Source: Streptomyces sp. CB02009 (GTDB taxonomy: Bacteria; Actinomycetota; Actinomycetes; Streptomycetales; Streptomycetaceae). From it: a stretch of DNA of 64,000 nucleotides. The first letter of the stretch is position 1, and each line of letters opens with the position of its first letter. Both the position numbers and the translations under genes were made by a program. The notes beneath the pieces were generated by a model. The model worked only from the letters and a program-made list of their open reading frames with translations, was not told the DNA's origin and ran no database searches. Where the stretch lies: NCBI RefSeq assembly GCF_001905825.1, contig NZ_LIVV01000005.1, forward strand, positions 512,594-576,593. The letters run 5' to 3'. Shown piece after piece: positions 18,358 to 19,353 of the stretch.

Positions 18358-18487
18358 AATAACCCCCTGCAATGAATCAACCGGCGGACGGTAACACGCG
18401 CGGTGGAGGGGGAAGGTGCAGGTGGGGGGCCCGGCGGGTGCCTCGGGTGGGGTCCTCAGAGTGGGCCGGGTGTGTGAGTGACGGGTG

Positions 18488-18623
18488 GGACCGCCCTCTT
18501 TCCGAGAGTCGCTCCTTCCGGCGGTGCGTCAAGGGCGCTCCTTCGTCGCGTCGCTGCGCGATGGCCTTCGGCCACCCTTGACCCACCACCTCCAGGAGCG
18601 AAAACACTCTCGGAGGGCGGTCC
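18488..18623 (+). repeat. Folded palindromic module, copy A
   Basis: A 136-base element that can fold into one long branched hairpin. The outer stem is GGACCGCCCT (18488-18497) with AGGGCGGTCC (18614-18623). After a CTTT bulge comes CCGAGAGT (18502-18509) with ACTCTCGG (18606-18613). Further in, GTCAAGGG (18528-18535) pairs with CCCTTGAC (18575-18582). This encloses two hairpins, TCGCG/CGCGA (18546-18561) and TGGCC-TTC-GGCCA (18562-18574). Copy B shows paired substitutions in three of these helices. Could be a DNA cruciform, a palindromic repeat family member or a structured RNA. Confidence 0.75.
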
Positions 18624-19120
18624 AGGGGACCGGGTCCACGCCGGGCCTCGGGCAGTGGCCGCCGTCGGCGGGCGTGTGCCGGCCGGTGGGTGGGTGCGCG
18701 GCAGTTGAATGGGGCAGCCGGGCCCGGCTCAGCGGCGGAAGGTCGTTCGCGGTGGGGCTTCAGGCCCCGCTGGTCACCCCCGGTGGGGTGTGAGTGGAGG
18801 AAACTGCGGGCTACTCCGAGTAACACACCCCGAAAGATGCCTCATTGGGTGCGAATCGCCCTTATCGGGCGGTGAAATGCGAGAAACTCACGCCGTTCGC
18901 TCCTCACCACCCACCGGGAGTGACCAGCGGGGCCTGAGTCCCAGCCGAACGACGACGGTCGGCCGCTAAGCGCCGCCGGGCCGCCCCATTCAACAACCGC
19001 GCACCCCGAACCCACGGAACAACGCCCACCGACCCCGGCCACAAACCAAGCCCCCACCCACCGGCCGACGCCCGCCCACCACGACCGGCCCCTACCCGGC
19101 ATCCGCGCGGCCCCGGCCCT

Positions 19121-19258
19121 CGGCCGCCCTCCGAGTGTGAAAAGGCGGCCTCCGCCGCCGGGTCAAGGGTGGGCGCAGCCCATCGCGCAGCGACGCGACC
19201 GCAGGGAGCGCCCTTGACGCGGCGGCGGAGGACGCCACACTCGGAAAGAGGGCGGCCG
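19121..19258 (-). repeat. Folded palindromic module, copy B (inverted)
   Basis: Inverted relative of copy A. Outer stem CGGCCGCCCT (19121-19130) with AGGGCGGCCG (19249-19258), CCGAGTGT (19131-19138) with ACACTCGG (19237-19244), the AAAG bulge, GTCAAGGG (19162-19169) with CCCTTGAC (19211-19218), and hairpin TGGGC-GCA-GCCCA (19170-19182). Compared with A, paired bases changed together in the outer stem, the second stem and the terminal hairpin, while loop-proximal TCGCG/CGCGA stayed identical. Confidence 0.75.
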
Positions 19259-19353
19259 CACCCGAGGCTCCCCAACCCGGCCCACCCCCGGAACCCCAAC
19301 AACCCGCCTCCCCCTCCCCCGAAACTCGCTCGAAGAGCACCCCCCGGGCCTCC

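Follow-up and report, generated by a model that had tools for sequence, protein, structure and literature searches.

A family of GNA-capped DNA hairpins in actinobacteria, apparently undescribed, with features of single-stranded-DNA promoters

A palindromic element with two hairpin modules

We looked at a stretch of 64,000 nucleotides from Streptomyces sp. CB02009 (the window), in which a non-coding, imperfect palindromic element occupies positions 18440..19310. The element, delimited from inverted repeats, DNA fold and a six-copy alignment, is assigned to neither strand. Genes for an FG-GAP protein (minus strand) and a HEAT-repeat protein (plus strand) flank it and both diverge from it, and no transposase gene was found within it. 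Its two arms of about 430 nt each meet at an apex (18795..18902, unstranded) with a GGAAACTGCGGGCTACTCCGAGTAACAC stretch, which is identical in the five copies sequenced through. Within this stretch lies a small palindrome, TACTCCGAGTA, where a protein might bind.

Each arm carries one hairpin module: module A (136 nt, 18488..18623), whose folded strand is the minus strand, and module B (138 nt, 19121..19258), whose folded strand is the plus strand. The preliminary description had placed two copies of a branched hairpin here, kept by paired base changes, and both are present. Inverted-repeat pairs I1-I5 and I9 show them to belong to the arms of a single imperfect palindrome of about 870 bp, which as a whole gave a DNA fold z of -21.6 against 20 shuffles. 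The modules by themselves reached z values of -8.4 to -10.1 against dinucleotide shuffles, and for each module none of 200 shuffles folded as well. To compare the two, A (minus) and B (plus) were folded with DNA parameters and then aligned. Among the 52 pairs of A, 39 were identical in B and 10 had changed on both sides and were still paired, one showed a one-sided change and two were broken. The branched fold is thus common to both modules, and the four compensatory changes named initially are all real and are included in these counts. All 10 double changes preserved the local hairpin and all of them lost arm-to-arm pairing, indicating that conservation acts on the local fold. A family model (R1) gave the same strand assignment, scoring 77 bits for A and 73 bits for B on the folded strands against 38 and 37 bits on the opposite strands.

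Six copies of the whole element were found in the host genome (9.2 Mb in 35 contigs), one of them interrupted by an assembly gap; the copy in the window is internal on its contig (C31, 531079-531851 of 908521). All 12 core copies in the genome lie within these six elements and none was found elsewhere, so the earlier term "dispersed palindromic DNA repeat" is apt as a description. Between copies, module A varies little and module B likewise, which indicates that the unit was inherited or copied whole; A and B differ from each other in sequence and have the same fold. Dispersed imperfect palindromes in inverted pairs are also seen in the REP/BIME palindromes with RAYT transposases. Unlike those, which measure 20-40 nt, the modules reach 136-138 nt, and the ORFs flanking them encode the FG-GAP and HEAT-repeat proteins rather than a transposase. 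A link to rRNA, which the number of six copies had suggested by way of six rRNA operons, was rejected, as an Rfam scan found no rRNA in the window.

Core fold and promoter-like signature

On the folded strand, the centre of each module is a core made of GTCAAGGG, three hairpins (H1, H2 and H3) and CCCTTGAC, forming a four-way junction with few if any unpaired bases at the junction. In core A (18528..18582, minus) the three loops are GAA, GCA and GAA, and in core B (19162..19218, plus) all three are GCA. Other family members carry, for example, TGGCC-GAA-GGCCA, TCGGC-GTA-GCCGA or TGATC-GAA-GATCA as H1, TCGC-GCA-GCGA, TCAC-GAA-GTGA or TCGGC-GAA-GCCGA as H2, and CGC-GAA-GCG, CGCC-GAA-GGCG or CGCGAC-GAA-GGAGCG as H3. 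We parsed 142 cores, in which 335 of 426 hairpins had a GNA loop and 370 of 426 a C-G closing pair; as the members are related by ancestry, such counts are not independent tests. GNA mini-hairpins, d(GCGAAGC) included, are extraordinarily stable in DNA, GCGAAGC melting near 78 C, and CGCGAAGCG is a sequence used for stabilising DNA aptamers (PMC4686876). This same CGCGAAGCG is the H3 of 13 family members.

Stem positions outside the constraint of the search pattern showed strong covariation. At pair 12-18 of H1, for instance, we counted CG 16, GC 7, AT 3 and TA 2, that is Watson-Crick pairing in 28 of 28 members (shuffle mean 11.4, max 20). The earlier suggestion that the fold itself is selected is therefore borne out by covariation across an independent family, beyond the two copies. 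Mismatches in the 142 cores were strongly asymmetric, with more than 200 G-A and A-G against about 10 C-T and T-C, and with 43 G-T and T-G against 16 A-C and C-A. This asymmetry indicates that one of the two strands is the structured and selected one. A protein-binding cruciform, as first proposed, came close, but a single strand is selected, and the likeliest candidate for a bound protein is RNA polymerase.

The outer stem's 3' strand, CCCTTGAC, contains a -35-like TTGAC, found at 18528..18532 (minus) in module A and at 19214..19218 (plus) in module B. TTGAC was kept in most covariance-model matches outside Streptomyces, and in one locus (L105) it was kept despite two-sided changes in other outer-stem pairs (GTCAACGC/GCGTTGAC). 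The exact-pattern search had fixed the outer stem, TTGAC included, and nothing downstream of TTGAC was part of the pattern. In 57 members with downstream flanks at least about 25% different, position 19 after TTGAC was A in 36 and position 23 was most commonly T. Among 56 diverged members, 37 carried the motif xAxxxT at a distance of 15-17 nt downstream of TTGAC; the members are related, so that the counts are not independent. Shuffled flanks gave a mean of 3.2 and a maximum of 10 such motifs at this distance (2000 trials), and other offsets in the real flanks gave 0-4 each. By alignment with the family, the putative -10 of module A is GACTCT (18505..18510, minus), an xAxxxT, and that of module B, also placed by the A/B fold, is CACACT (19236..19241, plus), each with a 16-nt spacer. 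Both hexamers are weak compared with TATAAT, and a simple consensus scan of the window modules found no promoter.

When upstream flank, core and downstream flank were folded together, pairing with the upstream flank was seen in 64-95% of members at positions 2-17 after TTGAC, against 27-55% with shuffled flanks. It fell to 27-41% at positions 19-27 and rose again to about 70-75% at positions 31-40; overall, shuffled upstream flanks gave about 20-55%. Across the family, this profile indicates that the -35 and the spacer are double-stranded within one strand, with the -10 in a bubble. In Streptomyces modules, those of the window included, the -10 is for the most part paired and has adjacent bulges instead of an open bubble. 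The CTTT bulge pointed out in the preliminary description is one of these: on the folded strand it reads GAAA and lies just downstream of the putative -10, in module B at 19244-19247 (plus) according to the A/B fold.

These observations bear on whether the modules act as RNA. The folded strand might be expressed as a structured non-coding RNA. A non-coding RNA had been among the first proposals and would agree with the covariation, with the excess of G-T over A-C, with tandem G-A pairs and with the AGTA/GAA-like internal loops of some deep members. However, the loops are DNA-stable GNA triloops and not GNRA or UNCG, and the position of the module relative to genes is inconsistent. In addition, the -35 and -10 lie in the 3' half, so that transcripts would begin after the core. 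A non-coding RNA is thus less likely than a folded single-stranded DNA, and we consider it improbable. A riboswitch or other known RNA was rejected, as no Rfam family matched above gathering or relaxed thresholds, in agreement with the initial statement that no known riboswitch explains the fold.

Equally improbable, in our opinion, is that the modules are ordinary double-stranded promoters of the flanking genes, with an operator or an extruding cruciform upstream. In favour of this are the -35 and -10 themselves and, in the window, the divergence of both flanking genes. Nevertheless, such a promoter would need neither a spacer paired with upstream DNA nor strand-specific G-A mismatches, and across the family the nearest downstream gene was convergent in 41 cases and co-directional in 28 (approximate counts from a simple ORF picker). 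This predominance of convergent genes makes priming likelier than gene expression as the use of the promoter-like sequences. A role as 5' leader of the flanking genes was rejected, since it holds in the window and not across the family.

Finally, the modules might be a neutral dispersed palindromic repeat, or a bidirectional terminator, kept by its own spread. The six similar copies in one genome and the frequent position between convergent genes would fit, but the outer palindrome leaves the conserved -35 and -10 unexplained, and a neutral repeat would not account for compensatory change across Actinomycetota families. Neither a terminator nor a T-run was found in the window element, and a terminator was rejected for this reason. 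We regard this explanation as very improbable.

The family across Actinomycetota

The modules appear to represent a previously undescribed DNA hairpin family, widespread in actinobacteria; a literature search, which covered few subscription papers, found no published description of these sequences. With the whole element as query, 75 of 296 Streptomyces genomes gave a match. The core alone matched 32 plasmid records, mostly from Actinomycetota. With a covariance model of the core, matches at E <= 0.001 came from 26 of 296 Actinomycetota genomes, mostly with 1-3 copies, and about a third of these genomes gave a weak match only. An exact-pattern scan of GTDB genomes yielded 117 stretches from genera that include Jiangella, Actinomadura, Nocardia, Mycobacterium, Kocuria, Leifsonia, Frankia, Amycolatopsis and Streptomyces. 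Several matches outside the actinobacteria are probably due to chance. In Neobacillus pocheonensis (L174:2104-2182, L194:1071-1149), AT-rich repeats with GTCAAGGG...GCGCCCTTGAC ends were seen that are probably unrelated. Most copies examined were chromosomal and many plasmids carried a single module; mobilizable plasmids with a module include Micromonospora pVMKU and Gulosibacter pARLON1. Where modules neighboured each other, 8 of the 9 pairs examined were outward-facing.

Several variants were observed alongside the main family. A second type of giant palindrome in Streptomyces (0.8-1.6 kb; L032, L036, L041, L042, L049) shares the core, differs in its arms and has internal repeats with CGCTAAGCCGAG-like motifs. 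In deep-branching members (L085, L089, L106, L107), H3 is long and contains repeated tandem G-A pairs together with AGTA/GAA internal loops that resemble the bulged-G (loop E) motif. The Curtobacterium plasmid NZ_CP126277.1 (L050), of 1579 bp, carries one module and a single annotated CopG-type gene and may be a minimal replicon. IMG/VR contigs (L257, L261, L265, L266, L270) contain a related but distinct four-way junction with a minimal GCGAAGC hairpin, AGCCCTGA-type arms and a common downstream GAGGTCGACG, and show no clear -10 at promoter spacing. A phage origin of the family was rejected, as no phage record matched and the viral-contig matches were of a different junction type or due to chance.

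Alternatively, the folded single strand could be recognised by a nuclease, a transposase or a replication protein (an HUH enzyme or a terminal-protein system), marking mobile or telomere-like ends, with the resemblance to a promoter being secondary. At Streptomyces telomeres, single-stranded DNA forms GNA loops that have sheared G-A pairs and are bound by Tap (PMC4513846), and the modules resemble these palindromes in their GNA-loop hairpins. Unlike telomeres, they are internal, come in inverted pairs and carry a -35 and -10, and do not lie at replicon ends. The exception is the linear Streptomyces plasmid NZ_CP109028.1 (L078:580-640, L079), in which an inward-pointing module lies about 580-650 nt from each end and adjoins telomere-type GNA hairpins.

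Recognition of this kind would also fit the occurrence of modules as outward-facing inverted pairs that terminate dispersed elements. In Actinomadura (L153:2460-4941, L181:116-2405), inverted modules of about 200 nt flank a DUF222 gene of about 410 aa, 13E12-repeat-like. These modules are extended by a further GNA hairpin, C-GGA-G, outside the core, and copies differ from each other by paired changes in the outermost stem. A general role as ends of a DUF222-HNH mobile gene was rejected, since among the loci examined this arrangement occurred only in Actinomadura.

Against recognition by such proteins, TTGAC and xAxxxT at promoter spacing would not be predicted, the window element has no transposase and many plasmids have just one module. 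Moreover, the locus beside the HEAT-repeat gene is common to another Streptomyces species and no recent jump was seen. In that species (G004, L245, C2:3522500-3530500), which has the same neighbouring genes, a decayed palindrome lies upstream of the HEAT-repeat gene and is interrupted by acetyltransferase-like genes. The decay of this syntenic copy indicates age at the window locus and not recent transposition. The module B hairpin is precisely absent from it, leaving a single GGCCGC, and slippage loss between GGCCGC repeats explains this difference as well as insertion does. An empty-site test for mobility yielded no demonstrated insertion, as the nearest syntenic species holds a decayed copy. 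Overall, recognition of the folded strand by a nuclease, transposase or replication protein seems unlikely to us, though less so than the explanations discussed above.

A proposed role on single-stranded DNA

We propose that the two modules act as hairpin promoters on single-stranded DNA, arranged as an inverted pair facing outward and most likely used for primer RNA synthesis, and we put the probability of this reading at roughly 0.6. Once exposed as single-stranded DNA, the strand that carries a module would fold into a long hairpin capped by the compact four-way junction of three GNA mini-hairpins. Pairing within the same strand would make the -35 (TTGAC with GTCAA) and the spacer double-stranded, and would leave the -10 in a bubble or flanked by a bubble or bulge. 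This would allow RNA polymerase to initiate transcription on DNA lacking a partner strand. The likeliest use would be a primer RNA for second-strand synthesis, as at a single-strand origin, and an alternative would be transcription of an incoming strand. As the two modules are inverted, the pair could serve either strand.

Comparable systems are known. Frpo folds into a stem-loop that rebuilds the -10 and -35 boxes (PMC9849209, PMC11541004). In our computational folds, the modules resemble the Frpo and ssi sequences of the F plasmid and ColIb-P9, since pairing within a single strand restores a -35 and a -10. They differ from them in the cap, a four-way junction of GNA mini-hairpins, in their high-GC actinobacterial hosts, in being mostly chromosomal inverted pairs in Streptomyces, and in having downstream genes that are not consistently co-directional. 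A word search of the text of a 2024 survey of single-stranded-DNA promoters (PMC11541004) found no mention of actinobacteria. Many single-strand origins (sso) consist of a folded promoter, the transcript of which serves as a primer for DNA synthesis; structure counts for more than sequence in them, and RNA polymerase makes the primer (PMC4595007). By analogy, the modules may be compared, as folded single strands, with the RNA-polymerase-dependent sso of rolling-circle plasmids and ICEBs1. Unlike for these, no tie to a rolling-circle replicon emerged here; the core is present in 32 plasmid records, and most examined copies are chromosomal.

More tentatively, actinobacteria may possess widespread chromosomal and plasmid single-strand origins or promoters built on a GNA-capped four-way junction; we hold this broader possibility to be doubtful at present, and it would imply an undescribed, regular single-stranded DNA phase, in transfer or in replication. 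A few conjugative plasmids have supplied most of the known single-stranded-DNA promoters, and rolling-circle replicons of Firmicutes most of the known sso; conjugation in Streptomyces is thought to move double-stranded DNA. To our knowledge, the GNA mini-hairpin has so far been known as a laboratory aptamer stabiliser and from telomeres. If our reading is true, this structurally defined actinobacterial class would provide a search model for sites of single-stranded DNA use, Streptomyces included, and would give the GNA mini-hairpin a natural use.
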